Part shown: positions 12,689 through 36,436 of the stretch, piece after piece
Position numbering within the stretch: position 1 is the stretch's first letter
Layout of the letters: every line of letters begins with the position of its first letter
Source of the DNA: Bacteroidaceae bacterium
GTDB taxonomy: Bacteria; Bacteroidota; Bacteroidia; Bacteroidales; Bacteroidaceae
DNA: 40,072 nucleotides
Direction: 5' to 3'
Assembly: GCA_017535725.1 (NCBI GenBank)
Contig: JAFXTO010000018.1
Location: 1 to 40,072 of the forward strand
Position numbers and translations under genes: made by a program
Notes under the pieces: model-generated
What the model saw: the letters and a program-made list of their open reading frames with translations, nothing else
Told to the model about the DNA's origin: nothing
Databases searched by the model: none

Positions 12689-12696
12689 TAACTTTG
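12689..12696 (+). promoter_or_regulatory. Housekeeping -7 box (TAACTTTG) before the SGNH gene
   Basis: TAACTTTG matches TAnnTTTG. It overlaps by two bases the -35 half of the candidate ECF promoter at 12695-12725, so the two promoters would compete or alternate. Confidence 0.45.
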
Positions 12697-12725
12697 CAAC
12701 CGCATAGACAAAAAATGCGTCTTAT
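12695..12725 (+). promoter_or_regulatory. Candidate ECF-sigma promoter of the SGNH esterase gene
   Basis: TGCAAC at 12695-12700 and GTCTTAT at 12719-12725 are separated by 18 bp. This is the same pair and spacing as the promoter of ECF locus 1 (21041-21070) and close to those of locus 2. Transcription would start near 12731, giving a leader of about 56 nt. Confidence 0.5.
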
Positions 12726-12786
12726 ACGTAGAGTATTTATTCCTAAACTAACACTTAATAACTTCAAAACTTAAAAACTTACAGCA

Positions 12787-13473
12787 ATGAAAAAGCTTTT
12801 CACTCTTATGTTGCTCGCACTCGTCGGAGCTTCGACAACGGTACGTGCTCAACAAGATTTTGCTAACTTCGGTCGCTTCGAGGCCGATAATGAACGCCTC
12901 GCTGCTGAGCCAAACAATGGCAAACGTGTTGTCTTCATGGGTAATTCCATCACAGAAGGCTGGATAGGAACGCATCCCAAGTTCTTCTCCGATAATGGCT
13001 ACATCGGTCGTGGCATCGGTGGTCAGACCAGTTACCAGATGCTGCTCCGATTCACGGAGGACGTCATCAACCTGAAGCCTGCTGCTGTGGTTATCAATGC
13101 AGGCACAAACGATGTCGCTATCAACAATCACCCTTATTCAGAGCGCCGCACCTACGAGAACATTGTCGCTATGGCCACTCTCGCTCAGGCCCACGGCATC
13201 AAGGTCATCCTGACCAGCGTTCTGCCTGCTGCCAGCTTTGCATGGCGTCCTGAAATCACAGATGCAGCCGACAAGATTGCAAGCCTCAATGCACGTATCA
13301 AAAAATATGCAGAGAAGAATGGATTCCAGTACGTAGATTACTATTCTGCACTGGTCTACGGCGAGAATCGCGAACTCAACCCTAATCTCCGAAAGGACGT
13401 AGCTCACCCCAACGCAGCTGGTTATGATGTTATGGAACCATTGGTGCAGAAAGCCATCAAGAAGGTTCTGTGA
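12787..13473 (+). CDS. Secreted SGNH/GDSL-type esterase
   Basis: The 228-aa protein has a signal peptide (MKKLFTLMLLALVGASTTVRAQ, cut near residue 21). The SGNH blocks follow in order: GNSITEGW with nucleophile Ser54, GRGIGGQTS with the oxyanion Gly, GTNDV with Asn108, and DVAHPNAAGY with Asp204 and His207 completing the triad. It should be a periplasmic or surface GDSL hydrolase that removes acyl groups such as acetyl esters from glycans; the exact substrate is not visible. It lies 125 bp before a GH2 glycosidase on the same strand, suggesting joint glycan processing. A candidate ECF promoter is at 12695-12725. Confidence 0.92.
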   Translation: MKKLFTLMLLALVGASTTVRAQQDFANFGRFEADNERLAAEPNNGKRVVFMGNSITEGWIGTHPKFFSDNGYIGRGIGGQTSYQMLLRFTEDVINLKPAAVVINAGTNDVAINNHPYSERRTYENIVAMATLAQAHGIKVILTSVLPAASFAWRPEITDAADKIASLNARIKKYAEKNGFQYVDYYSALVYGENRELNPNLRKDVAHPNAAGYDVMEPLVQKAIKKVL

Positions 13474-13579
13474 GAAATTGAAAATCGAGATTTGACATTT
13501 CGTAAATCCGTAAATCCACAATTTAAGTAGGTGTTCACAAGTTTTATGTTTTAACGCACCTACGGATAAATATGTAAAC

Positions 13580-13587
13580 TAATTTTG
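13580..13587 (+). promoter_or_regulatory. Possible -7 box for the GH2 gene (TAATTTTG)
   Basis: TAATTTTG matches TAnnTTTG and lies 11 bp before the GH2 start codon, which would give a leader of only about 5 nt. The -33 element is not clear. Confidence 0.4.
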
Positions 13588-13598
13588 AATATCTACTT

Positions 13599-15407
13599 AT
13601 GAAGCGAATATTCCTTACTATGGCGGTGGCACTCGGCCTTGTGCTTGGTGCCTTCGCCAATGCACTTCCTCGTGCCGAATATCCGCGTCCGCAGTTCGAG
13701 CGCGAGGCGTGGCAGAACCTCAATGGCATCTGGACCTATGAGTTCGACTTCGCCCTATCGGGTATGCAGCGCAACTTGAAGTCCAGCCAAGGTTTCCAGA
13801 ACCAGATTACCGTGCCCTTCTGCCCAGAGAGCAAGCTTTCTGGTGTGGAATACAAGGATTTCATTGCCGGCATGTGGTACCATCGCACCATCCGTCGTCC
13901 TGCTGAGTGGGCTGGCAAGCGTGTGCGTCTTAACTTTGGTGCTGTGGATTATTTCTGTGCTGTATATATCGACGGTAACCTCATCGGTCATCACTGGGGT
14001 GGCAGTAGCAGTTTCGGCTTCGACATCACTGATGCCGTGGCCGACGGTGCAGAGCATAATTTGGTAGTCCGCGTGGAGGACAACACGCGCTCCGGCGATC
14101 AGGCTACAGGCAAGCAGAGCCATCAATATGGCAGTTACGGCTGCATGTACACCCGCACCACTGGTATTTGGCAGACGGTATGGATGGAAGCCGTCAGCCC
14201 CTTCGGCCTGAAGAATGTCTATATCATCCCTGAGCTCGACGAGAAACGCTTCATCGTCCAGCCCCAGTTCTTCGCACTTCAGGCTGGACAGACCATCGAG
14301 GTCATCGTTCGCGACGGGGAGAAGGTAGTTGCTCGTCAGCAGCAGCGTGCCGCTACTCCTACCAATATCATCCTGCCCCTGAAGAATGTGAAACCCTGGT
14401 CGCCCGAGTCCCCCTTCCTTTATGATATTGAGTTGAACGTAAAGGCCGCCGACGGCACCGTCCTCGACCATGTGACTTCTTACGCTGGTATGCGCAAAAT
14501 ACATATCGAGGGCAACCGTCTCTTCCTCAACAACAAACCGCTGTACCTGCGCACCGTCCTCGATCAGGGCTTCTATCCAACAGGCGTATGGACGGCACCT
14601 TCTGATGACGATTTGCGTCGCGACGTAGAGTTGGGTCTGAAAGCTGGCTTCAACGGTGCCCGCTTACACCAGAAGGTCTTCGAGGAACGTTTCCTCTACT
14701 GGGCCGACAAGCTGGGTTACCTCGTCAGCTGCGAGTCGGCCAGTTGGGGAGTGGAGATGCAGAGCTCGCCCGCTGCACCGCGTAACTTCCTCACTGAGTG
14801 GGAGGAGATAGTAGTACGCGATCGTAACCATCCCGCCATCATTATGTGGACGCCGTTCAACGAGACCTGGGGACGTTCGCGCGATCGCGAGTCTGCCCGT
14901 GAGCATGACCGCTTCGTCAGCGATATCTATCATCTCACCCACAACCTCGATTACCGACCGATAGATGACGTCAGCGGTGGCAATCATGTCGTGGCTGATA
15001 TTTGGAGTCTGCACAACTACGCTTCGACCGGCGATGAACTCGCGAAAGTGCTTACTTGGCAGGACGGCAAAGCACCACAGTTCAACGACCACGAGGCGCG
15101 TTATGGCGGACAGCCCTTCTTCTTCGATGAATACGGTGGTATAAAATGGGTTGTTGGACAACAGTTTGCAGAGAATACCTGGGGCTATGGCGAAGGCCCG
15201 AAGACCCTTGAAGAATTCTACACCCGACTCGAGGGCCTCACCCGTACTATCATCCGTTTTGATTACATCTGTGGTTTCTGCTACACCCAACTGACCGATG
15301 TGGAGCAAGAACAAAACGGTGTCTACAACTTTGACCGCACGGAGAAATTCGACATGAATCGCATCGCTTCCATCTTCCGTCTACAACCCGAAGAATACAA
15401 TAAGTAA
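13599..15407 (+). CDS. Secreted glycoside hydrolase family 2 protein
   Basis: The 602-aa enzyme has an N-terminal signal peptide (MKRIFLTMAVALGLVLGAFA). Its GH2 domains are: a jelly-roll sugar-binding domain (EAWQNLNGIWTYEFD, NFGAVDYFCAVYIDGNLIGHHWGG), an immunoglobulin-like domain (about 205-305), and a TIM barrel (about 310-600). The acid/base Glu422 is in PFNETWG and the nucleophile Glu511 in FFFDEYGG. GH2 members are beta-galactosidases, beta-mannosidases or beta-glucuronidases acting by a retaining mechanism; the specificity cannot be read here. It is shorter than LacZ, with no C-terminal domain 5. It follows the SGNH esterase and is convergent with the U32 gene 7 bp downstream. Confidence 0.93.
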   Translation: MKRIFLTMAVALGLVLGAFANALPRAEYPRPQFEREAWQNLNGIWTYEFDFALSGMQRNLKSSQGFQNQITVPFCPESKLSGVEYKDFIAGMWYHRTIRRPAEWAGKRVRLNFGAVDYFCAVYIDGNLIGHHWGGSSSFGFDITDAVADGAEHNLVVRVEDNTRSGDQATGKQSHQYGSYGCMYTRTTGIWQTVWMEAVSPFGLKNVYIIPELDEKRFIVQPQFFALQAGQTIEVIVRDGEKVVARQQQRAATPTNIILPLKNVKPWSPESPFLYDIELNVKAADGTVLDHVTSYAGMRKIHIEGNRLFLNNKPLYLRTVLDQGFYPTGVWTAPSDDDLRRDVELGLKAGFNGARLHQKVFEERFLYWADKLGYLVSCESASWGVEMQSSPAAPRNFLTEWEEIVVRDRNHPAIIMWTPFNETWGRSRDRESAREHDRFVSDIYHLTHNLDYRPIDDVSGGNHVVADIWSLHNYASTGDELAKVLTWQDGKAPQFNDHEARYGGQPFFFDEYGGIKWVVGQQFAENTWGYGEGPKTLEEFYTRLEGLTRTIIRFDYICGFCYTQLTDVEQEQNGVYNFDRTEKFDMNRIASIFRLQPEEYNK

Positions 15408-15414
15408 GCATTCA

Positions 15415-16719
15415 TTATTCACTCTTGTCGATTCGGAACAGCTTGTCGCTGTGGCGGATTTTGGAATCCACGCGGAAGCTGACGTTGCTTCCCTGACGAG
15501 CCACACTGACAGGCTGGTTTGTGTCGTCGTGCATTTCTTCGATGATGCCATAGATGGCACCTGTAGTGGGACCGGTGACAAGGAATTTGTCGCCAACATG
15601 CAATTCGGTGGCTTCGATGTGGAATTCACCCAGTCCGAGGCGTGAGTAGTACTTGGTGCCGCGCCCCACGTAGACCTTGCGTTCGGTGGCCTGTGAGCCG
15701 TAGGTCTGAGACCATTCGCCAAGGCGTTGTCCTTGGTAATAGCCGTCCCAGAAACCTCGGTTGAAAACGGTCTTTAACCGTTCGTCCCATGCATCGAGCT
15801 GCGATTTCAGGCTGGGGTGTTGGAAGTCAAGTGCCTCCGTGCCGTCTGGTTTCTCCATTGTCCATTGTCCATTGTCCATTTTAATTTTCAAGTCAATGGC
15901 TTCCCTATAGCATTCCACAACGGTTCGCACGTACTCGGGTCCTCGTGCGCGACCTTCTATTTTAAATACGCGCACGCCAGCGTCCACCAGTTTATCGAGG
16001 AAGCGGATGGTCTTCAAGTCCTTGGGAGACATGATATAAGGGCCATCGACTTCCAGTTCGATGTCAGTCTCGCGGTCGCTGACGAGATAGCTACGTCGGC
16101 AGAGCTGCATGCATTCGCCTCGGTTGGCCGAGCGACCCGTGTTCATCAGAGAAAGGTAACACTTGCCCGAGACAGCCATGCAGAGTGCGCCGTGGCAAAA
16201 CATCTCAATTCGGATAAGTTGTCCATTAGGACCGCAGATTTGGTCGCGATTGATGGTGTCGTAAATTTCCCGAACTTGCTGGATGTTCAATTCGCGCGCC
16301 AGTACTACGACGTCCGCAAACTGGGCGTAGAAGCGTAGTGACTCGGAGTTGGAGATATTCAGCTGTGTACTCAGGTGCACTTCTAATCCGATACTGCGTG
16401 CGTAGGTCATCACCGCTACGTCCGATGCGATGATGGCCGAGATGCCTGCCTCCCGTGCGGCATCCAGAATCTGCCGCATCAGAGGCAAGTCCTCACCATA
16501 GATAATGGTGTTCACGGTCAGGTAGCTCTTCACGTTGTGCTCGCGGCAAGTCGCGGCTATTTCCTTTAGGTCATCGATAGTGAACGCTGATGCTGAATGA
16601 GCACGCATATTCAGTCGTTCGATACCGAAATAGATACTATCGGCTCTTGCCTGCAGGGCAGCGGTCAGACTTTCCCGCGAGCCTACGGGAGCCATGATTT
16701 CGAATTCTTCGCGTTTCAT
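15415..16719 (-). CDS. Peptidase U32 family protein (TrhP/YegQ-like)
   Basis: The 434-aa protein begins MKREEFEIMAPVGSRESL. It carries the U32 hallmarks: the TIM-barrel start RADSIYFGIERLNMRA, EMFCHGALCMAVSGKCYLS with the conserved Cys residues, NRGECMQLCRR, and KIEGRARGPEYV. U32 proteins of this type (TrhP) install the hydroxyl of 5-hydroxyuridine at position 34 of tRNA; others were called collagenase-like proteases. Start 16719 was chosen because the upstream frame holds a promoter and antiparallel gene DNA. The -7 box ends five bases before the ATG, so the mRNA may be leaderless. Residues about 279-290 (MDNGQWTMEK) are encoded by a TCCATTG repeat. It is divergent from dus, another tRNA U-modification gene. 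Confidence 0.9.
   Translation of the reverse strand: MKREEFEIMAPVGSRESLTAALQARADSIYFGIERLNMRAHSASAFTIDDLKEIAATCREHNVKSYLTVNTIIYGEDLPLMRQILDAAREAGISAIIASDVAVMTYARSIGLEVHLSTQLNISNSESLRFYAQFADVVVLARELNIQQVREIYDTINRDQICGPNGQLIRIEMFCHGALCMAVSGKCYLSLMNTGRSANRGECMQLCRRSYLVSDRETDIELEVDGPYIMSPKDLKTIRFLDKLVDAGVRVFKIEGRARGPEYVRTVVECYREAIDLKIKMDNGQWTMEKPDGTEALDFQHPSLKSQLDAWDERLKTVFNRGFWDGYYQGQRLGEWSQTYGSQATERKVYVGRGTKYYSRLGLGEFHIEATELHVGDKFLVTGPTTGAIYGIIEEMHDDTNQPVSVARQGSNVSFRVDSKIRHSDKLFRIDKSE
15855..15883. repeat. Heptamer repeat (TCCATTG) inside the U32 gene
   Basis: The 7-mer TCCATTG is repeated three times and followed by TCCATTT. Read on the minus strand it encodes KMDNGQWTME. Three 7-mers are 21 bp, so the frame is kept. 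Confidence 0.85.
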
Positions 16720-16724
16720 GGGGG

Positions 16725-16732
16725 CAAAGGTA
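16725..16732 (-). promoter_or_regulatory. -7 box of the U32 gene (TACCTTTG)
   Basis: On the minus strand TACCTTTG is followed by only CCCCC before the ATG at 16719. The predicted transcription start coincides with the start codon. No good -33 box is seen at the usual distance. Confidence 0.6.
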
Positions 16733-16806
16733 AGGAGAATTTGCGATTTTACGATTTGCAAAGTAGAATTTATTTGAAAAAGGCACGCTGTTTGCGAAAA
16801 AATAGT

Positions 16807-16814
16807 TACTTTTG
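16807..16814 (+). promoter_or_regulatory. -7 box of dus (TACTTTTG)
   Basis: TACTTTTG matches TAnnTTTG and lies 7 bp before the dus ATG, so the predicted leader is 0-2 nt. It is divergent from the U32 promoter. Confidence 0.6.
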
Positions 16815-16821
16815 CGCCGCA

Positions 16822-17964
16822 ATGAAGATAGGAAAGATTGATTTGGGCGAGCGTCCGGTATTGCTCGCACCTATGGAAGACGTCACTGATATTGGTTTCC
16901 GCCTCCTTTGCCGACGTATGGGAGCAGCTATGGTGTATTCGGAATTTGTGGCGGCCGATGCGCTGGTGCGTATGGTCAACAAAAGCCTGCGCAAGCTCGA
17001 AGTGTGCGACGAGGAACGTCCTGTGGCCATTCAAATCTATGGCAAGGAACCTGGGCCGATGGCCGATGCGGCACGAATCGTGGTTGAACAGGCACATCCT
17101 GATGTGCTTGACTTGAACTTCGGTTGCCCCGTGAAGAAGATTGCCACGAAAGGTGCCGGTGCTGGACTGCTGCGCGATGTGCCCAAAATGCTGGAAATCA
17201 CTCGAGCCGTGGTGGATGCCGTAGGCTCTGAGGTTCCCGTCACGGCGAAGACACGATTAGGCTGGGACTACGAACACATGATTATCGTTGAGCTGGCTGA
17301 ACAGTTGCAGGACTGCGGTATCTCTGCTCTAACGATTCATGGACGCACACGTTCTCAACTCTACTCTGACCGGGCCGACTGGACTCTAATCGGTGAGGTG
17401 AAGCGCAATGCACGCATGCATATACCTATTATCGGTAATGGGGATATTACCTCGGCAGAACGTGCCGTGGAGGTCTTCGAACGCTATGGTGTTGATGCCA
17501 TCATGGTAGGCCGCGCCACCTTCGGTAGGCCGTGGATATTTAAGGAAATAGTTGACGAGTTTGCCAAGCGTGAAGCGTTGCAAGGCACCGAACGGACAAA
17601 TAGTCAAGTTGATATTCAAGACAGAAAACTTGTTGACTCGTCAACTAACAATTTGTCAACTAATAACTCGTCAACTAACAACTTGTCAACTAACAACTTG
17701 TCAACTAATAACTCGTCAACTAATCTTGACTGGAAACTGAATATCCTGAAGGAACAAGTCCTCACTTCCGTAGCTCGGACCAACGAACTCAGTGGTATTC
17801 GCCACATTCGCCGTCACCTTGCAGCCTCACCGCTCTTCAAAGGGATTCCCGATTTCCGCCAGACACGTATTCGTATGCTTCAGGCCGATACCGTGGATGA
17901 GCTCTTTGAGGTTATGGAATACACCCGCGGGCTGCTACACCAACAGGAAGGTAACAACGACTAA
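16822..17964 (+). CDS. dusB: tRNA-dihydrouridine synthase (DusB-like)
   Basis: The 380-aa FMN enzyme reduces uridine to dihydrouridine in tRNA. Visible motifs: LAPMEDVTDIGFR (FMN binding), QIYGKEP, the catalytic loop LNFGCPVKKI with Cys102, KTRLGWD, HGRTRSQLYSDRADW and GNGDITS, VGRATFGRPWIF. A helical C-terminal domain (SGIRHIRRHL) binds tRNA. The ATG at 16822 fits the start MKIGKIDLGERPVLLAPM; the frame upstream overlaps the U32 gene. Residues about 250-301 between the barrel and the helical domain come from a 15-bp repeat cassette (STNNL/STNNS units) and are not part of the family. It is convergent with purU and shares a bidirectional terminator with it. Confidence 0.95.
   Translation: MKIGKIDLGERPVLLAPMEDVTDIGFRLLCRRMGAAMVYSEFVAADALVRMVNKSLRKLEVCDEERPVAIQIYGKEPGPMADAARIVVEQAHPDVLDLNFGCPVKKIATKGAGAGLLRDVPKMLEITRAVVDAVGSEVPVTAKTRLGWDYEHMIIVELAEQLQDCGISALTIHGRTRSQLYSDRADWTLIGEVKRNARMHIPIIGNGDITSAERAVEVFERYGVDAIMVGRATFGRPWIFKEIVDEFAKREALQGTERTNSQVDIQDRKLVDSSTNNLSTNNSSTNNLSTNNLSTNNSSTNLDWKLNILKEQVLTSVARTNELSGIRHIRRHLAASPLFKGIPDFRQTRIRMLQADTVDELFEVMEYTRGLLHQQEGNND
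17602..17731. repeat. 15-bp in-frame repeat cassette inside dus
   Basis: Five full copies of 15-bp units, TCAACTAACAACTTG alternating with TCAACTAATAACTCG, run from 17641 to 17715, plus a partial copy. Short inverted arms flank it: AGTCAAGTTGA from 17602 and TCAACTAATCTTGACT ending at 17731. Each 15-bp unit encodes STNNL or STNNS. The same words occur in the intergenic array at 28807-28846, where the period is 16. Confidence 0.9.
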
Positions 17965-17988
17965 AACAGGGATATCGTTTCCTGTTTT
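17963..17988. terminator. Bidirectional terminator between dus and purU
   Basis: An 8-bp perfect stem AAAACAGG/CCTGTTTT (17963-17970 with 17981-17988), with A-rich and T-rich flanks, sits in the 23-bp gap of two convergent genes. It can end transcripts from both sides. Confidence 0.75.
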
Positions 17989-18851
17989 TAGCTGAAAATG
18001 ATGGTCTTGTTTTTGTAGGTGAGAATCTTGCGCTCGATGTGTTTGGTAACGGCGCGGGAGAGTACGATTTTCTCCAGGTCCTTGCCTTTTAGAGCCAGGC
18101 TTTCGGGAGTATCTTTATGGGAGATGCGTGCTACGTCCTGCTCGATGATGGGTCCTGCGTCGAGCTCAGCAGTGACGTAGTGGCTGGTGGCACCGATAAT
18201 CTTCACGCCGCGCGCCCAGGCTTGATGATAGGGCTTGGCCCCCACGAAGGCAGGCAGGAAAGAGTGGTGGATATTGATGATGTGGTGGGGATAGGCCGTT
18301 ATCATTTCGTCGCTCAGTATCTGCATGTAACGTGCCAGAACGATAAAGGTCACACGCTTCTCACGCATCAGCTCCATTTCCGCAGTCTCCACCTCTGCCT
18401 TGTTCGAGTGGTCTTTGTTGATGGACCAGACGTAATAAGGGATGTCGAATTGCTCGGCCACGTAGCGCAAGTCCTCGTGGTTGGAAATAATGCAGGGGAT
18501 ATCCACTTGCCACTCGCCGGCCTTGTAGCGCGCCAGCAGGTCATAAAGACAATGGCTCATGCGGCTGACAAAAATAGCCATACGAGGGCGCTCGTCGGAG
18601 AAATACAGGTTGAAGGTCATCTGATAGCGTTGGGCGTAGAGTGTCATAAGATATTCCTCTATCTTCACTTTGGGAATGAGGAAGCGCTCCAGCTCCCACT
18701 CAATGCGCATGAAGAACATGCCGTCCTCGCGGTCAACATATTGATCCAGATAAACGATGTTGCCCGCGTTGTCGGTAATGAACTTGGTCACCTCTGAAAT
18801 AATACCCGGCTGGTCGGGGCAGTGCAGCAGAAGTATGGCTGTCGATTTCAT
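17988..18851 (-). CDS. purU: Formyltetrahydrofolate deformylase
   Basis: The 287-aa enzyme hydrolyses 10-formyl-THF to formate and THF, balancing one-carbon pools for purine synthesis. An N-terminal ACT domain (LLLHCPDQPGIISEVTKFI, residues about 5-80) is followed by a formyltransferase domain (from RPRMAIFVSRMSHCLYDLL). The catalytic set lies in IINIHHSFLPAF (Asn and His) and AELDAGPIIEQD (Asp). Length and domain order are normal for PurU and separate it from PurN, which lacks the ACT domain. A TAnnTTTG box at 18888-18881 gives a ~30-nt leader; the gene lies after the ECF locus 1 operon but has its own promoter. Confidence 0.96.
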   Translation of the reverse strand: MKSTAILLLHCPDQPGIISEVTKFITDNAGNIVYLDQYVDREDGMFFMRIEWELERFLIPKVKIEEYLMTLYAQRYQMTFNLYFSDERPRMAIFVSRMSHCLYDLLARYKAGEWQVDIPCIISNHEDLRYVAEQFDIPYYVWSINKDHSNKAEVETAEMELMREKRVTFIVLARYMQILSDEMITAYPHHIINIHHSFLPAFVGAKPYHQAWARGVKIIGATSHYVTAELDAGPIIEQDVARISHKDTPESLALKGKDLEKIVLSRAVTKHIERKILTYKNKTIIFS

Positions 18852-18880
18852 AAAATGCGTTCAATTTGAATTTGCGGGCG

Positions 18881-18888
18881 CAAAGGTA
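18881..18888 (-). promoter_or_regulatory. -7 box of purU (TACCTTTG)
   Basis: On the minus strand TACCTTTG is followed by GCGCC, 30 bp before the purU start. Confidence 0.65.
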
Positions 18889-18915
18889 GTAAAGAAAGCC
18901 GACATGACCAAATTT

Positions 18916-19356
18916 TCACACCTCTTTTACTATCTTCTGGATGCAAAGGGGCAGAAGAATCAGGCTGGCGAGGACGATTGCAGACAACTGTAAGGGGGAA
19001 GGAAGTACTTCGGGGAGGTGGTGGATGAAGAGCATCGTCCGGACGAGCAAGGCATCCCAGTCGAGGGTCATCAGGGTTACTAACAAGCGCTCTGCCGCAG
19101 GAATCAAGAAGGTACGCATGGCTCCGAAGAAGTCGAGCGAGAAGAGCAGGATGAAGCCGCCAATAACGGCTGCTACGTTTAATCCTATTGACCAGTACCG
19201 CAGATGCAGGTTTGCGGTCAACCAGTCCGCCTCTCGCTGAGGTAGGGCCCACACGACACGTTCTGTGAAGCCGTTGTCTGCGATGTGCTCCGCATGTTCA
19301 CTGAAGAAACTTTTCAGCAGCGCCTCGTCATCTTTTATGTTGTATGGTTCTTTCAT
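18916..19356 (-). CDS. DUF5056-like membrane protein of ECF locus 1 (possible anti-sigma factor)
   Basis: The 146-aa protein has a ~50-residue cytosolic N-terminus (DDEALLKSFFSEHAEHIADNGFTERV) and then two or three membrane helices (IGLNVAAVIGGFILLFSLDF; a central one; LQLSAIVLASLILLPLCI). The N-terminal motif and size fit the DUF5056 family, often found right after an ECF sigma gene in Bacteroidales. Position 31 bp after the sigma gene suggests a membrane-bound anti-sigma factor or regulator; no classical zinc anti-sigma motif is visible, so this role is inferred. Confidence 0.75.
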   Translation of the reverse strand: MKEPYNIKDDEALLKSFFSEHAEHIADNGFTERVVWALPQREADWLTANLHLRYWSIGLNVAAVIGGFILLFSLDFFGAMRTFLIPAAERLLVTLMTLDWDALLVRTMLFIHHLPEVLPSPLQLSAIVLASLILLPLCIQKIVKEV

Positions 19357-19387
19357 TTCATTCTAATATATTTCATTCTTTCATTTT

Positions 19388-19960
19388 TCAACCGTATCCA
19401 TTCTTTCGGAGGTAGTTTGCCAGATTCTTCTTGCCTCGGAGGAGATGGCTCTTGACGGTGTTCTCGTTCAGTCTGGTAATCTGGGCAATCTCCCTTATAC
19501 TCTGACCCTCCACGCATTGGAGTACCACGCAAGTGCGTTCTATTTCTACGAGGCTGGCCAGCGCCTGATCGAGGTCCATTGATAAGGAGGCTCCTTCGCC
19601 GCCTCCACCCAAGGGGAGCAGTTGCATTTCTGCTTGTTCACTACCAGCCAGGAGTTCTTCCTCTTTTGCGGAGGTGGGGAGAGGACTCCTCTTTCTCGCT
19701 TCATCCAAAAACACGTGGTAGGCAATTCGCAAAAGCCAGGTCTCGAATCCTGAGAGTTGTCGGAAGCCGCCTATCCCCTGCCAAGCTCGGATGAAGGTCT
19801 CCTGAGCCAGGTCATCGGCCAACATCACATCGCCGCTCGTTAGTCGGCGTAGGAAGCGGCGCACAACTTCCTGATGATTTTCAACTAGTTGGCCAAAAGC
19901 GCGGTGACTGCCTGTGGCTATCACCTGCGCTATAAGTGTTATGTCCGAGAGGCGGGACAT
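19388..19960 (-). CDS. ECF RNA polymerase sigma factor (locus 1)
   Basis: The 190-aa protein has sigma region 2 (RAFGQLVENHQEVVRRFLRRL, with DLAQETFIRAWQGIGGF, the -10 reading helix) and region 4 (CVVLQCVEGQSIREIAQITRLNENTVKSHLLRGKKNL, a helix-turn-helix for the -35 box). A 40-residue Gly/Leu-rich linker joins them, and there is no region 1.1 or 3, so it is an ECF (group 4) sigma. It starts 2 bp after the stop of the upstream envelope-protein gene and is followed by the DUF5056-like gene, so the three are one operon read from a candidate ECF promoter at 21070-21041. Confidence 0.95.
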   Translation of the reverse strand: MSRLSDITLIAQVIATGSHRAFGQLVENHQEVVRRFLRRLTSGDVMLADDLAQETFIRAWQGIGGFRQLSGFETWLLRIAYHVFLDEARKRSPLPTSAKEEELLAGSEQAEMQLLPLGGGGEGASLSMDLDQALASLVEIERTCVVLQCVEGQSIREIAQITRLNENTVKSHLLRGKKNLANYLRKNGYG

Positions 19961-19962
19961 GT

Positions 19963-20982
19963 TTATCTCTGATACGTTGAACCGCTATCGTCTTGTGCGT
20001 CCTCCACTACTTCGTAATTCGTAGGGTTGTAGTTGGGTTGCTGGGTGTGCTTCTTCTTCGTGGTTGAGGCAATCACCAACTTAGCAACTCCGATGCAAGC
20101 TACCAGAGCGCCAACTCCCCACAGGTCTTCCAAACCGATTCCGAAGAAGAGAAGAATCAGGCCAACACCCACACAAGACCACATGATTCCGCTCTTCCAT
20201 ATCTCCTGATTCTCATCGGGGTAAGGCTGTACGTAGGCTTGGGCACCTGCAGGTTGTGCATTCGGTGTTGCCTGTGGGTTGCCTGCAGCTTGTGGGTTGG
20301 ATGCATCCTGTGGGTTTTGTGCGGTTGAGGACGAAGCCGTATTGAGGGGTGGGTTCACGTAGGTGGTCGTTCTGTTCCGGCGGGTCGCCAGCCAGATGAT
20401 GAGAATGAGAATCCAGATAGGTGAGGTGAAGAGGGCGAAGAGCAACACCACAACGAAGAGTGCAGCCAAAACCCCGAAAATGCCGCCCAGGATTCCTAAT
20501 GTTCCGCCAAAAAGTCCTCCCCAAAGCCCTGGAAAGCTAAAATTCCATCCGAAGTCACGAGCAATCTCATCAATATCTTCATCCGAGAGTAATGATGCGG
20601 TATCTGTGTCCTCGTCACCTTCGTAGAAGAAAGTGGTGTCTTCAGCCAGCGATTCCAGCGAGTCGCCGAGTCGTTCCATCTCATCGCCCATTGCTTCCAT
20701 CTCGTTGGCCAGACGCTCTGCTTCTTGCGGGTCTGTCACAGCCTTGGCAGCCATTTTCACTCCTTGCTTGGCCATTTTCACTCCTTGCTTGGCCATCTTC
20801 TTGGCCACATCTTTCTGTGCAGGTGTGGCAGGTTTGCCGTTGACAGTCATACCTGTCGTTACTCCCGTTGTGCCGGCATTCTTTGTGGAATCCTGAGCTT
20901 CCTCGGCCAGCAGCGGGGAGCAAGGTGTGGCGGCCACCATCATTGCGGCCAGAGCCATCATAAAAAATTTCTTTGTCTTCAT
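19963..20982 (-). CDS. Exported membrane protein heading ECF locus 1 (DUF6249-like C-terminus)
   Basis: The 339-aa protein has a signal peptide (MKTKKFFMMALAAMMVAATPCSPLLAEE). It is followed by a Lys/Ala helical stretch with a direct duplication (KMAKQGVKMAKQGVKMA), an acidic region, and a long Gly-rich hydrophobic segment (GLWGGLFGGTLGILGGIFGVLAAL then a helix). A Pro/Gln/Asn-rich linker (NPQ repeats) leads to a final two-helix part (WKSGIMWSCVGVGLILLFFGIG, LWGVGALVACIGVAKLVI) resembling DUF6249. It ends in a hydrophilic tail. No enzyme motif is visible. Start 20982 opens on the signal peptide; 23 more open codons lie upstream. As first gene of the operon it may be sensor or target of the sigma response; a specific function is not known. 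Confidence 0.75.
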   Translation of the reverse strand: MKTKKFFMMALAAMMVAATPCSPLLAEEAQDSTKNAGTTGVTTGMTVNGKPATPAQKDVAKKMAKQGVKMAKQGVKMAAKAVTDPQEAERLANEMEAMGDEMERLGDSLESLAEDTTFFYEGDEDTDTASLLSDEDIDEIARDFGWNFSFPGLWGGLFGGTLGILGGIFGVLAALFVVVLLFALFTSPIWILILIIWLATRRNRTTTYVNPPLNTASSSTAQNPQDASNPQAAGNPQATPNAQPAGAQAYVQPYPDENQEIWKSGIMWSCVGVGLILLFFGIGLEDLWGVGALVACIGVAKLVIASTTKKKHTQQPNYNPTNYEVVEDAQDDSGSTYQR

Positions 20983-21009
20983 AGTTATAAATTTTATTAA
21001 TCTTTCAAT

Positions 21010-21040: not shown

Positions 21041-21070
21041 TTAGACGACAAAGGAATAAAAAAAGTTGCA
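21041..21070 (-). promoter_or_regulatory. Candidate ECF promoter of locus 1 (TGCAACTT-N16-GTCTAA)
   Basis: On the minus strand TGCAAC (21070-21065) is 18 bp from GTCTAA (21046-21041). This resembles the sigma-E type pair GGAACTT / GTCTAA and has the same spacing as the site before the SGNH gene. It lies ~60 bp before the first gene of the operon that encodes an ECF sigma, which suggests autoregulation. Confidence 0.6.
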
Positions 21071-28846: not shown

Positions 28847-28859
28847 ATATATTATATTT

Positions 28860-30599: not shown

Positions 30600-30601
30600 T
30601 A

Positions 30602-30749
30602 GACCCCTTCCCCGCTCCCCCTCAAGGGGGAGAGTGGTTACCTTTGAAGAATAAGCATACATTTAGATATAACCATAAAAGCAATGACCCTGTAACAACC
30701 TCTCAAATACATTCTACTCTCCCCCTTGAGGGGGAGCGGGGAGGGGGTC
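30602..30749. repeat. Inverted-repeat element 1 in the A-B gap of the ATPase operon
   Basis: The 148-bp element has 31-bp terminal inverted repeats matching at 30 of 31 bases (left begins GACCCCTTCCCCGCTCCCCC; right is its reverse complement). It starts 2 bp after the A stop codon and ends 10 bp before the B start. Its interior (GTGGTTACCTTT..., ...CAACCTCTCAAATACA) is shared with element 2 at 32083. Confidence 0.92.
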
Positions 30750-30759
30750 TTATAAAGTT

Positions 30760-32082
30760 ATGGCACAAGCATTCCAAAAGATATATACAAAGATTAGCCA
30801 GATTACGAAAGCTACCTGTTCGCTGAAGGCAACAGGCGTAGGCTACGACGAACTGGCCACCATCAACGGCAAGCTGGCTCAGGTGGTGAAGATTATGGGT
30901 GACGACGTGACCCTTCAGGTCTTTGAGGGCACAGGCGGCATCCCGACGAACGCAGAGGTCGTTTTCCTCGGCCACTCCCCTTCGCTGAAGGTCAGCGAGC
31001 AGCTGGCTGGACGCTTCTTCAATGCCTACGGCCAGCCCATCGACGGCGGTCCGGCTATCGAGGGCAAGGAAGTGCCCATCGGCGGTCCATCGGTGAACCC
31101 CGTGCGCCGCAAGCAGCCCAGTGAGCTGATAGCCACGGGTATCGCAGGTATCGACCTGAACAACACCCTCGTCTCTGGCCAGAAGATTCCGTTCTTTGCA
31201 GACCCCGACCAGCCCTTCAACGAAGTGATGGCTATGGTGGCCTTGCGCGCCAAGGTTGACAAGATTATCCTCGGCGGAATGGGTATGACCAACGACGACT
31301 ACTACTTCTTCAAGAATACGTTCTCCAACGCCGGTGCGCTCGACCGCATAATCTGCTTCATGAACACCACCGAGGATCCCGCCGTGGAGCGTCTGCTCGT
31401 GCCCGATATGGCATTGACGGCTGCCGAGTACTTCGCTGTGGAGAAGCATGAGACGGTGCTCGTCCTCTTGACGGACATGACCTCCTACGCCGACTCCCTC
31501 GCTATCGTGTCGAACCGTATGGACCAGATTCCTTCCAAGGATTCAATGCCGGGCTCCCTCTACTCCGACCTGGCAAAGATTTACGAGAAGGCTGTGCAGT
31601 TCCCCGAGGAAGCTGGTGGCGGCAGTATCACCATTATCGCCGTGACGACCCTTTCCGGAGGCGACATCACCCACGCCGTGCCCGATAACACGGGTTACAT
31701 CACCGAGGGTCAGCTCTACCTCCGCCGTGACTCCGACGTGGGTAAGGTCATCGTCGACCCGTTCCGCTCCCTCAGCCGTCTGAAGCAGCTCGTGGCAGGA
31801 AAGAAGACCCGCAAGGACCACTCACAGGTCATGAACGCCGCCATTCGCCTGTACTCCGACGCCGCCAACGCTAAGACCAAACTGGAGAACGGATTCGACC
31901 TCACGGACTACGACAACCGTTGCCTCGCCTTTGCCAAGGACTATGCCACGGCAATCCTCGCCATCGACGTCAATGTGGATACCACTGAGATGCTCGATGT
32001 CACCTGGGCACTCTTCCGCAAGTACTTCAAGCTTGAGGAAGTCAACATCAAGAAGGAGTTCACGGATATCTACTGGAAGTAA
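30760..32082 (+). CDS. atpB: V/A-type ATP synthase subunit B
   Basis: The 440-aa non-catalytic nucleotide-binding-fold subunit of the A3B3 head has the expected length and motifs (LKVSEQLAGRFFNAYGQPIDGGP, RRKQPSELIATGIAGID, TDMTSYADSLAIVSNRMDQIPSKDSMPGSLYSDL). It lacks a Walker A lysine motif, as usual for B. The symbol follows V-type naming, not the F-ATPase atpB. It lies between two copies of the inverted-repeat element, so A, B and D are each separated by a strong hairpin. Confidence 0.96.
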   Translation: MAQAFQKIYTKISQITKATCSLKATGVGYDELATINGKLAQVVKIMGDDVTLQVFEGTGGIPTNAEVVFLGHSPSLKVSEQLAGRFFNAYGQPIDGGPAIEGKEVPIGGPSVNPVRRKQPSELIATGIAGIDLNNTLVSGQKIPFFADPDQPFNEVMAMVALRAKVDKIILGGMGMTNDDYYFFKNTFSNAGALDRIICFMNTTEDPAVERLLVPDMALTAAEYFAVEKHETVLVLLTDMTSYADSLAIVSNRMDQIPSKDSMPGSLYSDLAKIYEKAVQFPEEAGGGSITIIAVTTLSGGDITHAVPDNTGYITEGQLYLRRDSDVGKVIVDPFRSLSRLKQLVAGKKTRKDHSQVMNAAIRLYSDAANAKTKLENGFDLTDYDNRCLAFAKDYATAILAIDVNVDTTEMLDVTWALFRKYFKLEEVNIKKEFTDIYWK

Positions 32083-32228
32083 GACCCCCTCCTCACTCCC
32101 CCTCAGAGGGGGAGGGTGGTTACCTTTCAAGAATAGTATTCTTCATTATTCAACCATAAACAATGACCCTATAACAACCTCTCAAATACAATCCGCTCTC
32201 CCCCTTGAGGGGGAGCAGGGAGGGGGTC
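32083..32228. repeat. Inverted-repeat element 2 in the B-D gap of the ATPase operon
   Basis: The 146-bp element is homologous to element 1. The left arm GACCCCCTCCTCACTCCCCC starts directly after the B stop codon. The right arm ends ...GAGGGGGTC 7 bp before the D start. The interiors share CAATGACCCT, TAACAACCTCTCAAATACA and GTGGTTACCTTT. Confidence 0.92.
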
Positions 32229-32235
32229 CGATAAT

Positions 32236-32892
32236 ATGGCAATAAAGTTTCAATACAACAAGACATCGCTCCAGCAGATCGAGAAACAGCTGAAGATGCG
32301 ACAGCGCACCTTGCCTATCATCAAGAGCAAGGAAACCGCGCTGCGCCTCGAGGTCAAGCGCTGCAAGGAAGAGGTGGCTGCGTTGGAAGCGAGACTGCAA
32401 GAGCAAATCGCCGGCTACGAGTCGATGTATGCCCTCTGGGGAGAATTCGATGCGTCGCTGGTGGAGCTGAAGGACGTCGAGATGGATGTGAAGAAGATCG
32501 CGGGCGTGCGCGTACCCGTTCTTTTGAATATTAAGCTCGTGGCGAAACCCTTCGGCATCTTCAGTGCTCCCAAATGGTACTTCGACGGTATCAACCTGCT
32601 CCACGGGCTTGCCAAGACAGCTGTGGAACGTGAGTTCGCCGTTGCTAAGTGCGACCTATTGGAGCATGCTCGCCGCAAGACCACGCAGAAAGTGAACCTC
32701 TTTGAGAAGGTGCAGATTCCCGGATTCCAGGAAGCGGTGCGCAAAATCAAACGATTCATGGAGGACGAGGAGAACCTCTCCAAGTCGTCCCAGAAAATCC
32801 TCAAGTCCCTGCAGGAAAAGCGCAAGGCAGAAGAGGAGGCCAGTGCGTCCGTCGATGCCATCGATGGAGAACAGAAAGGAGGTGACGCATGA
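32236..32892 (+). CDS. V/A-type ATP synthase subunit D (rotor shaft)
   Basis: The 218-aa central shaft subunit consists of N- and C-terminal helices that form an antiparallel coiled coil (QYNKTSLQQIEKQLKMRQRTLPIIKSKETALRLEVKR and the C-terminal VRKIKRFMEDEENLSKSSQKILKS, given here only as parts), with a short globular middle. That is the D-type (gamma-like) build. Its stop overlaps the start of subunit I by four bases (ATGA), which suggests translational coupling. No separate F gene follows, although D normally binds F. Confidence 0.9.
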   Translation: MAIKFQYNKTSLQQIEKQLKMRQRTLPIIKSKETALRLEVKRCKEEVAALEARLQEQIAGYESMYALWGEFDASLVELKDVEMDVKKIAGVRVPVLLNIKLVAKPFGIFSAPKWYFDGINLLHGLAKTAVEREFAVAKCDLLEHARRKTTQKVNLFEKVQIPGFQEAVRKIKRFMEDEENLSKSSQKILKSLQEKRKAEEEASASVDAIDGEQKGGDA

Positions 32893-34748
32893 TACAGAAA
32901 ATGAAGAAACTCAATTTCCTGGTCTACCACAGGGAGTATGATGAGTTCCTGCATCGCCTGCAGGAGTTGGGTGTCATGCACATCCAGGGCGGTACCATCG
33001 CCGACAAGCAGTCCGACACCGTGACCGCCGATATTGCAGACCTGCGCCGCGTCGATGACCTCCTTAAGCAGACCGCCGAAATCCTCGACTCTGACAAGAA
33101 GGAACTCGCCTCTCTTCCCGATGCCTCTGCACCGCAGGACTCCTATACTCAGCAGGAACTCGTCACCGAGTACGAGACCCAGCTGGCCCGCGTCAGCTCC
33201 CTGGATCTCCGCAAGAAAGACCTTGCCGAGCAAATCGACCTGCTCACGCCCTGGGGCGAGTTCGACCCTGCCTACGTGCGCCAGCAGTTGGCAGCAGCCT
33301 CCTGTGAGATGCTCTTCTTCACCGCTCCTACCAAGGTCTTCCATAAGGAGATAGAGCACAACTTCCCCGTTGAGGCTATCAGCGAGCAGAAGGGAACAAC
33401 CTATTTTGTCGCCATCGTGCGCGAGGAACCTCTCGCCGACGGCTTCTCTGCCGCTGACATTCCAGCTACTGCTGTCACGCTGCCCGATGCAGCACTGAGC
33501 ACCCTCCGTGCCGAGTACGATAAGGCGGTGGCAGACTATACGGCGACGCTGTCGCAGCTCAAAGCCCTCGATGCTGCCCGCACCGCCGACCTCCGCACCT
33601 ACCGCGACCAGCTCGCCCAGCGCCTGGCCTTCGACAGCGTGCGCACGACCACCGAGACGGCAGCGGACGACCACCTCATGGTGCTCCGCGGATGGATTCC
33701 TGCCGACAAGCAGGACGCTATCCCCGCCGCCTTTGCCGACAGCTCTGCATGGTACGAAATCAGCGACCCGCAGCCGGGCGACGACGTGCCCGTCTGTCTG
33801 AAGAACAACCGCTTCTTCAGCCTCTTCGAGATGATTACCGAGCTCTATATGCTTCCCAAGTACAACGAGATCGACCTCACGCCCTTCTTCGCACCATTCT
33901 ATATCCTGTTCTTCGGTTTATGTTTGGGCGACTCGGGCTACGGGCTGTTCATCACCTTGTGCGTCATCGCCGCCAAGTGTACCATGAAGAATATGGGCAA
34001 GGGAATGCGTGCCGCTATGAACCTGTTGCTGACACTGGGCATTTCAGCCTTCGTCTGCGGCCTGCTCTCTGGTGCCTTCTTCGGCTTCAACCTGTATGAT
34101 ATGGGCGTTCCTTTCTTCGACCAGATAGGTAATGTCGTGGCACTCGAGAATAGCCAGATGTTCAATCTCTCGCTCATCCTCGGTTTCATCCAGATTATCT
34201 TCGGTATGTGTCTGAAGGCGTACAACCGCGCCATCCAGTTCGGTTTCCGCTATTCGCTGTCAACTATCGGCTGGATGATGGTAATCCTCTCGGTGGGTGC
34301 TCTGCTTTTCCTGCCGGATTATGCCTCCATCGCTACCTGGTTCACCTACGCAGGGTTGCTGCTCGCCTTCTGCTACAACAGTCCGGAACGCTATGCGAAG
34401 AACCCCGTCACGGGCTTCCTCATTAACGTTGGTTCGGGTCTCTGGGATGCTTATAACACCGCCACGGGTATGCTTGGCGATATGCTTTCCTACGTCCGTC
34501 TCTTCGCCCTCGGACTCTCGGGCGGTATCCTGGCTACAGTCTTCGACAGCCTCGCCACCGGTCTGGCGCCCGACGTTGCCGTCGTAGGCCCCATCGTGAT
34601 GGTGCTCATCTTCGTTGTAGGACATGCCCTGAATATGTTCATGAACGTCCTCGGCGCATTTGTCCATCCCATGCGACTAACCTTCGTCGAGTTCTTCAAG
34701 AACGCAGGCTACGAGGGCGGCGGAACAGGCTACAACCCATTCAAATAA
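32889..34748 (+). CDS. V/A-type ATP synthase subunit I (a subunit)
   Basis: The 619-aa stator and ion-channel subunit has a soluble N-terminal half (residues about 1-310, coiled-coil rich; LNFLVYHREYDEFLHRLQELGVMHIQ) and a C-terminal membrane half with about eight helices (starting FFSLFEMITELYMLPKYNEIDLTPF). The helix DMLSYVRLFALGLSGGIL carries Arg537, and MRLTFVEFFKN carries Arg596; arginines at these places are needed for ion passage in the family. It overlaps the D gene by 4 bp. An octamer array lies in the 134-bp gap to subunit K. Confidence 0.95.
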   Translation: MIQKMKKLNFLVYHREYDEFLHRLQELGVMHIQGGTIADKQSDTVTADIADLRRVDDLLKQTAEILDSDKKELASLPDASAPQDSYTQQELVTEYETQLARVSSLDLRKKDLAEQIDLLTPWGEFDPAYVRQQLAAASCEMLFFTAPTKVFHKEIEHNFPVEAISEQKGTTYFVAIVREEPLADGFSAADIPATAVTLPDAALSTLRAEYDKAVADYTATLSQLKALDAARTADLRTYRDQLAQRLAFDSVRTTTETAADDHLMVLRGWIPADKQDAIPAAFADSSAWYEISDPQPGDDVPVCLKNNRFFSLFEMITELYMLPKYNEIDLTPFFAPFYILFFGLCLGDSGYGLFITLCVIAAKCTMKNMGKGMRAAMNLLLTLGISAFVCGLLSGAFFGFNLYDMGVPFFDQIGNVVALENSQMFNLSLILGFIQIIFGMCLKAYNRAIQFGFRYSLSTIGWMMVILSVGALLFLPDYASIATWFTYAGLLLAFCYNSPERYAKNPVTGFLINVGSGLWDAYNTATGMLGDMLSYVRLFALGLSGGILATVFDSLATGLAPDVAVVGPIVMVLIFVVGHALNMFMNVLGAFVHPMRLTFVEFFKNAGYEGGGTGYNPFK

Positions 34749-34772
34749 CCCGATAATCCTTCAATCTCAATC

Positions 34773-34836
34773 TCGATATCACGTTATCCCGTTATTACGT
34801 TATTTCGTTATTACGACATTTTGACATTACGACAAC
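34773..34836. repeat. Octamer array between subunits I and K
   Basis: Eight octamers stand in register: TCGATATC, ACGTTATC, CCGTTATT, ACGTTATT, TCGTTATT, ACGACATT, TTGACATT, ACGACAAC. The pattern is nCGttATt. Confidence 0.8.
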
Positions 34837-34852
34837 TCCGAATAATAATTAA

Positions 34853-35350
<498 letters not shown>

Positions 35351-35422
35351 TCAGGCACGCCGACCACACCCAGGAAAAAACGTCTCGCAAGCCCCCGCTT
35401 CTTGACCGTTTTTCCATCAAAC

Positions 35423-35466
35423 AAACCGTCAAACCATCCCCTTCCGGTCATGGTTTGACGGTTTTC
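35423..35466 (+). terminator. Terminator of the V-type ATPase operon
   Basis: A perfect 15-bp stem (35423-35437 AAACCGTCAAACCAT with 35450-35464) has a 12-nt loop and ends in TTTT. Confidence 0.92.
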
Positions 35467-35481
35467 TTCTTGCCGTTTCTG

Positions 35482-35489
35482 TAACTTTG
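35482..35489 (+). promoter_or_regulatory. Possible housekeeping -7 box before ECF locus 2 (TAACTTTG)
   Basis: TAACTTTG matches TAnnTTTG and lies 32 bp before the ECF site at 35521. It could give basal transcription of the sigma gene. Confidence 0.4.
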
Positions 35490-35518
35490 TTGTCGAAATC
35501 GAAAAAAGATTATACGAG

Positions 35519-35550
35519 AGTGTAATAATTATGAGGTTTTGGCGTCTTAT
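35519..35550 (+). promoter_or_regulatory. Candidate ECF promoter of the locus 2 sigma gene (copy 1 of a 32-bp repeat)
   Basis: AGTGTAATAATTATGAGGT is followed after 6 variable bases by GTCTTAT. The same sequence with identical spacing recurs at 36405-36436. Read as a promoter it is TGTAAT-N17-GTCTTAT; transcription would begin at about 35556, on the start codon. Confidence 0.7.
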
Positions 35551-35555
35551 ATATG

Positions 35556-36104
35556 ATGACAGACAGAGAACTCACATATCAAGTCACACAACGCGGCAAC
35601 CAAAAGGCATTCGCGGAGATTGTCCACCGCTACTCGGGGATGGTGTTTTCGAAGGCTTTGGGCGTGATTCACACCGAGGAAGGAGCTGCGGAGGTGACAC
35701 AACAGACCTTCGTCCGTGCTTACGAGAACCTTGATGTTTGGCGCGGTACGGAGTTGGGGCCTTGGCTCACGGCCATTGCAGCACACACCGCCCTCAAGTT
35801 CCTTGACAAGGAGCGCCGACGGCGCACCAGCTCCCTCGATGACCTTCCGGGCCGTGTGCTCGGTGGAATCCCCGCTGAATCTTCTTACTCCGAAGAGCAT
35901 GAAGCCCGCCTCCAACAGATGGAATCCGCCATCGCCGCCTTGCCTGAATCCGACCAGCTACTGCTTCGCCTCCACTACTACGACGGGTGCAAGACTGCCG
36001 ACATTGCCCGCCACACAGGGCTCTCGCAAAGCAACGTGCTCGTGAAACTGCATAGAATACGCGAACGACTTAAAACCCTCATGAATCATGAACCCAATGA
36101 CTGA
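35556..36104 (+). CDS. ECF RNA polymerase sigma factor (locus 2)
   Basis: The 182-aa ECF sigma has region 2 (KAFAEIVHRYSGMVFSKAL, then EVTQQTFVRAYENLDVWRG) and region 4 (ALPESDQLLLRLHYYDGCKTADIARHTGL, SQSNVLVKLHRIRERLK, helix-turn-helix). There is no region 3. ATG 35556 is preferred to 35553 because it falls on the predicted transcription start; both give the same protein but for one Met. The next gene overlaps its 3' end by 17 bp, so the two are coupled. The direct repeat before it and before the third gene suggests that this sigma reads its own promoter. Confidence 0.93.
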   Translation: MTDRELTYQVTQRGNQKAFAEIVHRYSGMVFSKALGVIHTEEGAAEVTQQTFVRAYENLDVWRGTELGPWLTAIAAHTALKFLDKERRRRTSSLDDLPGRVLGGIPAESSYSEEHEARLQQMESAIAALPESDQLLLRLHYYDGCKTADIARHTGLSQSNVLVKLHRIRERLKTLMNHEPND

Positions 36105-36411
36105 CAAATCCCTCGATAATCTCATTCGTGATACCATCAACCGTCGCGAACTGCTCGCCGATCTCGATCGCCTCATCATCGCTGATGTGCGCCGTCAGGC
36201 ACGACGCGCTTGGCTGCGCCGCTGGGCACGAGCAGCCGTCTTCAGTTTCGGGCTGCCGCTGGTGCTGATGTTCTTCTTCGCATGCGCATACCTTTATATA
36301 AAAGAGTACGACTGGACACCGCAGAGTTTCTTTGTGATGCTGTGGCCCACGCTCGGCCTGCTCTTTTCCACAGTTTATGCCATTAGAACTTTTTCGCCAG
36401 AGGAAGTGTAA
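36088..36411 (+). CDS. Small membrane protein overlapping the locus 2 sigma gene (possible anti-sigma)
   Basis: The 107-aa protein has a basic, charged N-terminal half (residues 1-45, DNLIRDTINRRELLADLDRL) and two membrane helices (AAVFSFGLPLVLMFFFACAYLYI and FFVMLWPTLGLLFSTVYAI). Start 36088 overlaps the sigma gene by 17 bp; ATG 36097 is an alternative with 8 bp overlap. Size, topology and position parallel the DUF5056-like gene of locus 1, so a membrane anti-sigma role is inferred. No family motif is certain. Confidence 0.8.
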   Translation: MNPMTDKSLDNLIRDTINRRELLADLDRLIIADVRRQARRAWLRRWARAAVFSFGLPLVLMFFFACAYLYIKEYDWTPQSFFVMLWPTLGLLFSTVYAIRTFSPEEV

Positions 36412-36436
36412 TAATTATGAGGTATAGAGGTCTTAT
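36405..36436 (+). promoter_or_regulatory. Candidate ECF promoter of the DUF6249 gene (copy 2 of a 32-bp repeat)
   Basis: 28 of 32 bases match the site at 35519-35550, with the first 19 and the last 7 identical. It overlaps the end of the preceding gene and lies ~85 bp before the DUF6249-like gene. Confidence 0.7.

Follow-up and report, generated by a model that had tools for sequence, protein, structure and literature searches.

Two putative autoregulated ECF sigma factor modules, each with its own promoter class, in a Bacteroidaceae genome

The window analysed here, a stretch of 40,072 nucleotides (nt) from a Bacteroidaceae bacterium (assembly GCA_017535725.1, contig JAFXTO010000018.1), contains two loci that each encode an extracytoplasmic function (ECF) sigma factor, sigma1 in locus 1 and sigma2 in locus 2, and raises the question of whether both are read from one promoter motif shared with a secreted esterase gene, as an earlier note on this DNA had proposed, or whether each has promoters of its own. 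Three of the four sites concerned are strongly conserved and fall into two distinct ECF promoter classes, and the fourth, at the esterase gene, is unconserved in the available homologues. Judged from this conservation, the region very probably represents two independent autoregulated ECF sigma modules, each with its own promoter class.

The proposed motif, TGYAAY-N17/18-GTCTWA, is present at all four claimed places, with a 17-nt spacer at 35521-35549 and 36407-36435 (both + strand) and an 18-nt spacer at 12695-12724 (+) and 21041-21070 (-). Shuffled windows give 0.01 (N17) and 0.07 (N18) expected matches, for a pattern that was itself drawn from these sites. When the whole assembly (2.9 megabases (Mb), 72 contigs, 76% complete) was scanned, exactly the four known matches were returned, but the reversed pattern, used as the control in all motif counts, also gave four; counting alone therefore cannot decide and conservation was used instead. 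Locus 2 was searched for in 61 related genomes, yielding 14 whole loci with the window's own among them, and in a species collection (one genome each of 84,980 species), where a sigma2-alignment query gave 80 named loci, the best 80 of 143 confirmed. These 80 come mainly from rumen Prevotellaceae and Bacteroidaceae assemblies and also from Prevotella bivia, Hoylesella oralis, P. dentasini and Tidjanibacter/Alistipes. A strict census of sigma2 sites covered 139 same-genus genomes, the window's own included, and locus-1 loci, taken at E values up to 1e-25, numbered 12 (nine of the same genus, own included, and three from other families). The 61-genome, species-collection and census sets and the DUF3836 loci described below share species, and their counts are not additive.

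In locus 2, the gene for sigma2 (35553..36104, +; 183 amino acids (aa), Sigma70_r2/r4_2, with the conserved start placed by alignment at the second Met, 35556) is directly preceded by a promoter, P1 (35521..35549, +), with -35 element TGTAATAAT and -10 element CGTCTTA. It overlaps by 17 nt the gene of a 107-aa membrane protein (36088..36411, +), a likely anti-sigma2, which ends GTG TAA and whose stop codon (36409-36411) lies inside the -35 element, again TGTAATAAT, of a second promoter, P2 (36407..36435, +; -10 GGTCTTA). P2 stands ahead of a 134-aa membrane protein of the DUF6249 family, DUF6249-2 (36521..36925, +; Pfam E 1e-14, and alignment). The class to which both sites belong is TGTAATAAt-N13-GGTCTTA, which may also be written TGTAATAA-N14-GGTCTTA. 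Upstream of P1, at 35482..35489 (+), the sequence TAACTTTG forms a primary-sigma-like -7 box and a possible basal promoter.

Within the 61-genome set, the sigma2-side site is found at 14/14 loci with at most 3/15 mismatches (L018 having one extra spacer base) and the DUF6249-side site at 12/14 with at most one. Among relatives from the species collection, the sigma2-side site is present within 2/14 mismatches in 75 of the 79 with enough flank, the missing rows being L243-L246; L243 carries the element with a 15-nt spacer, and in L246 a sigma2-type element precedes a DUF6249 gene sited upstream of sigma2. The DUF6249-side site occurs 700-1150 nt after the sigma2 start in 70/77, at the same threshold. 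A DUF6249 homologue lies within 350 nt downstream at all 71 second-position sites (one from a short-flank locus), a check made with 37 DUF6249 sequences, 36 of them from the tested loci themselves. Elsewhere in the locus DNA only 11 sites within two mismatches were found in 2.0 million positions, a background of 0.0007 per 120-bp window. The sigma2 start codon is no more than 10 nt from the -10 element in 36/75 loci, so that self-made sigma2 mRNA is predicted to be leaderless or nearly so there; in Bacteroides thetaiotaomicron, 5' untranslated regions shorter than 10 nt make up about 3.7%, according to excerpts of PMC7366714.

Locus 1 lies on the - strand and begins with a 339-aa DUF6249 protein with a signal-peptide-like start (19963..20982; Pfam E 4e-11), followed by sigma1 (19388..19960; 190 aa, Sigma70_r2 and Sigma70_r4_2) and by a DUF5056 membrane protein (18916..19356; Pfam E 1e-10) that, from its position, is a putative anti-sigma1. 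Its promoter (21041..21070), which lies about 58 nt ahead of the first gene's ATG, has -35 element TGCAACTTT and -10 element CGTCTAA and defines a class TGCAACTTt-N14-CGTCTAA, also written TGCAACTT-N15/16-CGTCTAA. The site is present in 12/12 locus-1 loci (own included), from four families, with at most 2/15 mismatches and with one more spacer base in the three other-family loci; the background at two mismatches is 0.0027 per 330-bp window. Past the DUF5056 gene, at a distance of 64 nt and on the same strand, lies purU (17988-18916, -), into which sigma1-driven transcription could therefore read.

In both sigma factors a short linker connects regions 2 and 4, the only sigma regions present (Sigma70_r2, Sigma70_r4_2), and both score above the cut-off of the sigma70-ECF model TIGR02937. 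Alignment of 13 sigma2-side sites (L018 left out), 12 DUF6249-side sites and nine same-genus sigma1 sites (the three other-family sites left out) shows both ends to be near-invariant and the spacer to be free, the pattern expected of a bipartite sigma site. Conservation in relatives thus bears out the claim that ECF-type promoters precede both sigma loci and the locus-2 DUF6249 gene, and with it autoregulation. It speaks against the single shared motif: -35, -10 and spacing all distinguish the two classes, and relatives keep each class intact. The likeness to known ECF boxes noted earlier is full for sigma1 (AAC and CGT) and approximate for sigma2, whose AAT and mostly GGT or TGT come close to that type.

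The fusion of P2 with a stop codon is itself a conserved feature. In 65/70 DUF6249-side sites, the TAA within TGTAATAA terminates, in frame, a reading frame at least 100 codons long, and in the 37 loci examined (of 80) this frame is the gene following sigma2, which it overlaps in 27; the 31 of these that were aligned share the N-terminal pattern of the window's 107-aa protein. Where the frame has at least 95 codons, the membrane-protein gene ends NTG-TAA in 65 of 66 cases, with V (53), L (7), M (5) or E (1) as last residue, although a C-terminal V, L or M follows automatically once this TAA is the stop and is not independent evidence. In Prevotella bivia the stop (TAG) sits just before the sigma2 element, outside the overlap. 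Promoter and stop codon remain overlapped from rumen Prevotellaceae to Rikenellaceae (Tidjanibacter), a clear example of a protein whose end is dictated by regulatory DNA.

The strict sigma2 regulon appears to be nearly confined to its own operon. In the 139-genome census, exact TGTAATAA-N14-GGTCTT gave 39 matches in 29 genomes versus 13 for the reversed pattern, and of the 38 that were read (G077:C66:11739 was left out), 37 lie upstream of one of three targets, the first matching gene within 350 nt being DUF6249 in 21 cases, sigma2 in 11 and DUF3836 in five; the remaining match (G004) has no target gene downstream and lies across a long frame. A further search of 1.05 Mb of locus DNA, allowing one mismatch, added only five sites, before DUF3836 (L185 and L198), a DUF6249 gene (L246), sigma2 (L188) and a gene of DUF3836 type that sits right at the Pfam cut-off (L206). 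The window's own genome has sigma2 sites only at the two operon positions, a one-mismatch search giving four matches versus 10 reversed, with the two extra ones inside long frames. On whether the motif is as frequent inside genes as upstream of them, which the earlier note had offered as a test, the strict sigma2 sites therefore come out well; loose sigma1-like matches in the own genome (TGCAAC-N17-CGTCTA within one mismatch) number 17 versus 24 reversed, and 14/17 fall inside long frames.

Cross-talk between the two loci themselves, suggested in the earlier note, is not indicated; it is at DUF3836, a small and apparently secreted protein, that the sigma1 and sigma2 regulons meet in relatives, and not at the esterase. 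The DUF3836 gene occurs in 12/139 same-genus genomes and is absent from the window's own. All 12 copies have a sigma1 site within two mismatches upstream, and in 7/12 a sigma2 site (at most three mismatches) follows 42-46 bp downstream of it, this second site being decayed or missing in G015, G116, G127, G162 and G092. Such tandem promoters offer a testable two-input gene. At L188 (4119-4421; also G144 and L294) a DUF3836-type tandem promoter stands about 260 nt before sigma2 and is followed by the usual sigma2 promoter; the L188 locus has no DUF3836 gene, and the G144 site, about 230 nt before sigma2 and one of the 11 exact matches assigned to it, is the counterpart of that in L188. This arrangement may constitute a sigma1-to-sigma2 cascade. 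A 10-bp palindrome, CCTGCGCAGG, was also seen upstream of DUF3836 (L151, L152, L153, L154, L259, L260, L262, L264, L265), where it overlaps the spacer end and the -10 start of the sigma2 site; it is retained in G015 and G116, which lack that site, and is possibly the operator of another regulator.

For sigma1, a candidate target is found elsewhere on the own chromosome, where a one-mismatch copy of the site, TGCAACTT-N15-CGTCAAA, lies upstream of a MacB-type exporter operon (ABC ATPase, two MacB-type permeases, HlyD-type adaptor). A site within two mismatches is present there in 8/9 same-genus genomes with sigma1 (own included; G002 has four) and in 0/7 of those without detected sigma1 (best scores 3-6). 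Outside the genus, five of six exporter ATPase relatives score 4-6, including the sigma1-bearing G038, and G051 carries TGTAACTT-N14-CGTCTAA. About 15 nt past the exporter -10 lies a TAnnTTTG-type box, so that a basal promoter is likely as well. Four Prevotellaceae/Prevotella assemblies (L213 6689, L215 6311, L217 4353, L218 6325) also have sigma1-like sites before a yccF-type gene, the first base of the site being 52-93 nt before the ATG; Pfam YccF was checked on the L213 copy.

The idea that a single ECF regulon, with the shared motif TGYAAY-N17/18-GTCTWA, has an exported esterase as its output depends on the remaining site. The gene in question (12787..13473, +) encodes a secreted SGNH/GDSL esterase (Lipase_GDSL_2, E 1e-26; signal peptide by eye), and the element upstream of it (12695..12724, +) is probably a look-alike and not an ECF promoter. 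It overlaps a copy of TAACTTTG (12689..12696, +), a box of the type TAnnTTTG, the -7 consensus of the primary sigma factor according to excerpts of PMC7366714, which supplies the first two bases (TG) of the apparent -35. Upstream of 27 other esterase homologues in 25 genomes, 44-58% identical and with no close orthologue among them, the element is absent, the best score within 250 bp being at least 4/15 mismatches; a loose N16 match does occur in L056, on the opposite strand and about 270 bp away. TAnnTTTG itself occurs within 200 bp upstream in 9/28 esterase loci, and hence the primary box is unconserved in most too. The shared regulon may draw on the existence of all four sites upstream of genes, on the 3/15 mismatches that separate the esterase site from the sigma1 consensus (a background-level score), and on the sigma1 promoters of other families, which start TGCAACC (L045, L046). 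As the two classes are conserved separately, each with a -35, a -10 and a spacing of its own, and as the esterase site has no conserved counterpart, overlaps a primary-type box and matches a pattern less frequent in the own genome than its reverse, we consider a shared regulon very improbable and think that the esterase element probably extends an ordinary promoter by chance.

That the locus-2 blocks are not sigma2 promoters at all, and instead binding sites of another regulator, a stop or termination signal or an RNA element, is very improbable, although TGTAATAA does coincide with a stop codon at P2 and the palindrome lies in the DUF3836 sites. The same half-elements, always 14 nt apart, recur ahead of DUF3836 and ahead of sigma2, where the TAA usually ends no gene; the spacer differs between sites, the boxes closely resemble the AAC/CGT ECF type, and the sites stand beside nearly every sigma2 examined, with exact matches almost nowhere else in the genus. 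It is extremely improbable that all four promoters are real but used by the primary sigma, their ECF likeness being accidental: TAACTTTG boxes do occur at the esterase (12689) and ahead of locus 2 (35482), but only 19/79 relatives have TAnnTTTG in the 200 bp upstream of sigma2 (background 0.077), versus 75/79 with the ECF element.

Under the preferred reading of two independent modules, sigma1 would read its operon (DUF6249, sigma1, DUF5056) from TGCAACTTt-N14-CGTCTAA and, in this genome, would probably also drive the MacB-type exporter operon. Within its own operon, sigma2 would read TGTAATAAt-N13-GGTCTTA twice, the 107-aa membrane protein holding sigma2 inactive until an envelope signal frees it; P1 would then give sigma2 and its overlapping inhibitor in a fixed ratio, and P2 would give DUF6249 alone, an extra dose of which would be the main output. 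In some relatives, secreted DUF3836 would be placed under tandem sigma1 and sigma2 promoters. Promoter activity, the pairing of each sigma with its class, the anti-sigma roles, the signal and the function of DUF6249 are inferred, envelope stress being suggested by the membrane location and, for sigma1, by the exporter. We put forward only tentatively, as a proposal that may well prove wrong, that sigma2 is a nearly closed membrane-stress switch making one small membrane protein; that the 107-aa protein founds a class of anti-sigma factors without a recognised domain; that the stop-codon promoter P2 uncouples the dosage of DUF6249, as effector or second brake, from that of sigma and anti-sigma; that tandem DUF3836 is a two-input output; and that L188 is a cascade.

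Several observations weigh against parts of this reading. P2 is missing in L017 and L018, with none within four mismatches (2/14 same-genus loci), and in 7/77 relatives (L226, L227, L228, L244, L246, L248, L252). The exact sigma2 site is present in only 29/139 same-genus genomes, a share of all genomes irrespective of sigma2 carriage, and looser patterns are not clearly enriched: TGTAATA-N16-GTCTTW gives 32 matches in the 61 genomes versus 23 reversed, and TGCAAC-N17/18-CGTCTA gives 34 versus about 41. The former, whose extra matches were inspected in part, fall in 21/32 cases at the operon or DUF3836 and in 11 elsewhere, one of these (G005) about 50 nt before a gene. G010 has the DUF3836 sigma2 site and no DUF6249-2 match, its assembly being incomplete like the window's own. 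The exporter association tracks phylogeny as well as sigma1, since the majority of genomes with sigma1 also carry the closest ATPases and relatedness could account for part of it, and the exporter -10 is degenerate (CGTC, then variable; CGTCAAA in the own genome). The 107-aa protein has no Pfam family or relevant NCBIfam match, no known anti-sigma domain is present in the membrane proteins, and the structure model of the 107-aa protein, two long helices of moderate confidence (predicted local distance difference test (pLDDT) 74.6), gave no Foldseek match to solved folds at E <= 0.001. The model of DUF6249-2 (pLDDT 73.3) likewise gave no match at that threshold, and these models say nothing on function. 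Proteins with a class I anti-sigma domain (ASDI) are found near only 6% of Bacteroidetes ECF sigma factors, according to excerpts of PMC7406223, and unrecognised anti-sigma types are therefore to be expected.

How do these modules compare with known ones? FecI/FecR and SusCD-linked pairs are Bacteroidota ECF sigma factors with a membrane partner, as here, but neither of the membrane proteins in this window has a FecR domain match in Pfam, and self-activation is predicted. The RpoE-type autoregulated ECF operons are similar in having regions 2 and 4 only, an AAC/CGT-type promoter, predicted self-activation and an adjacent membrane-protein gene; locus 2 differs in having a second promoter, also self-activated, where the anti-sigma candidate gene ends, with a -35 doubling as stop, in its near-closed strict-motif regulon, and in a putative anti-sigma without a recognised domain. 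Autoregulated ECF modules with AAC/CGT-type boxes are already known: excerpts of PMC8103513 count such boxes among the ECF hallmarks, together with positive autoregulation and transcription in one unit with an anti-sigma, and name FecI-type systems as exceptions to self-activation. A small regulon of self plus neighbours is known as well, from CirY/CirZ of Phocaeicola vulgatus, a Bacteroidales ECF pair whose strongest targets are, in the available parts of PMC13114119, itself and a few nearby envelope genes; its output, unlike that of sigma2, is a Spy-type chaperone with two downstream genes, those parts give no promoter motif for it, and the pair is likened here by description only. Das/Dma (ECF21) and EcfO/Reo are also Bacteroidota ECF pairs in short operons with function-unknown proteins (excerpts of PMC13088901 and PMC13114119), but Dma proteins carry a beta-barrel at their end and Reo reportedly reaches across to the cell surface, for which the 107-aa protein is too short; the C-terminal beta-barrel that is the hallmark of Dma is not seen in its all-helical model of 107 aa.

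Little is known of the promoter specificities of Bacteroidota ECF sigma factors, and two, with predicted targets, are described here from sequence alone. According to a 2020 paper, not one was known among the ECF sigma factors of B. thetaiotaomicron, whereas a motif has been published for EcfO of B. fragilis (PMC7366714). As far as searches of the open-licence literature show, the two specificities (the EcfO motif being outside the comparison), the fusion of -35 and stop codon, the near-closed sigma2 regulon and the tandem sigma1/sigma2 promoters are new; in that literature DUF6249 appears only in unrelated plant work, and nothing was found on DUF3836 or DUF5056. The sigma2 class reaches cultured strains, namely Prevotella bivia DSM 20514, Hoylesella oralis ATCC 33269 and Prevotella dentasini JCM 15908.

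A link between locus 2 and the next gene past DUF6249-2, which encodes an outer-membrane beta-barrel protein (37242-39443), was considered and rejected: in G003 (L078) the next gene resembles, by eye, leucyl-tRNA synthetase, and the outer-membrane protein is thus not a fixed neighbour. Elsewhere in the window, a single frame at 180-1253 (-) contains a glutathione peroxidase domain and, after it, a nitroreductase domain, an apparent fusion protein, and 5406-7793 (-) encodes a PorZ-type type IX secretion protein.

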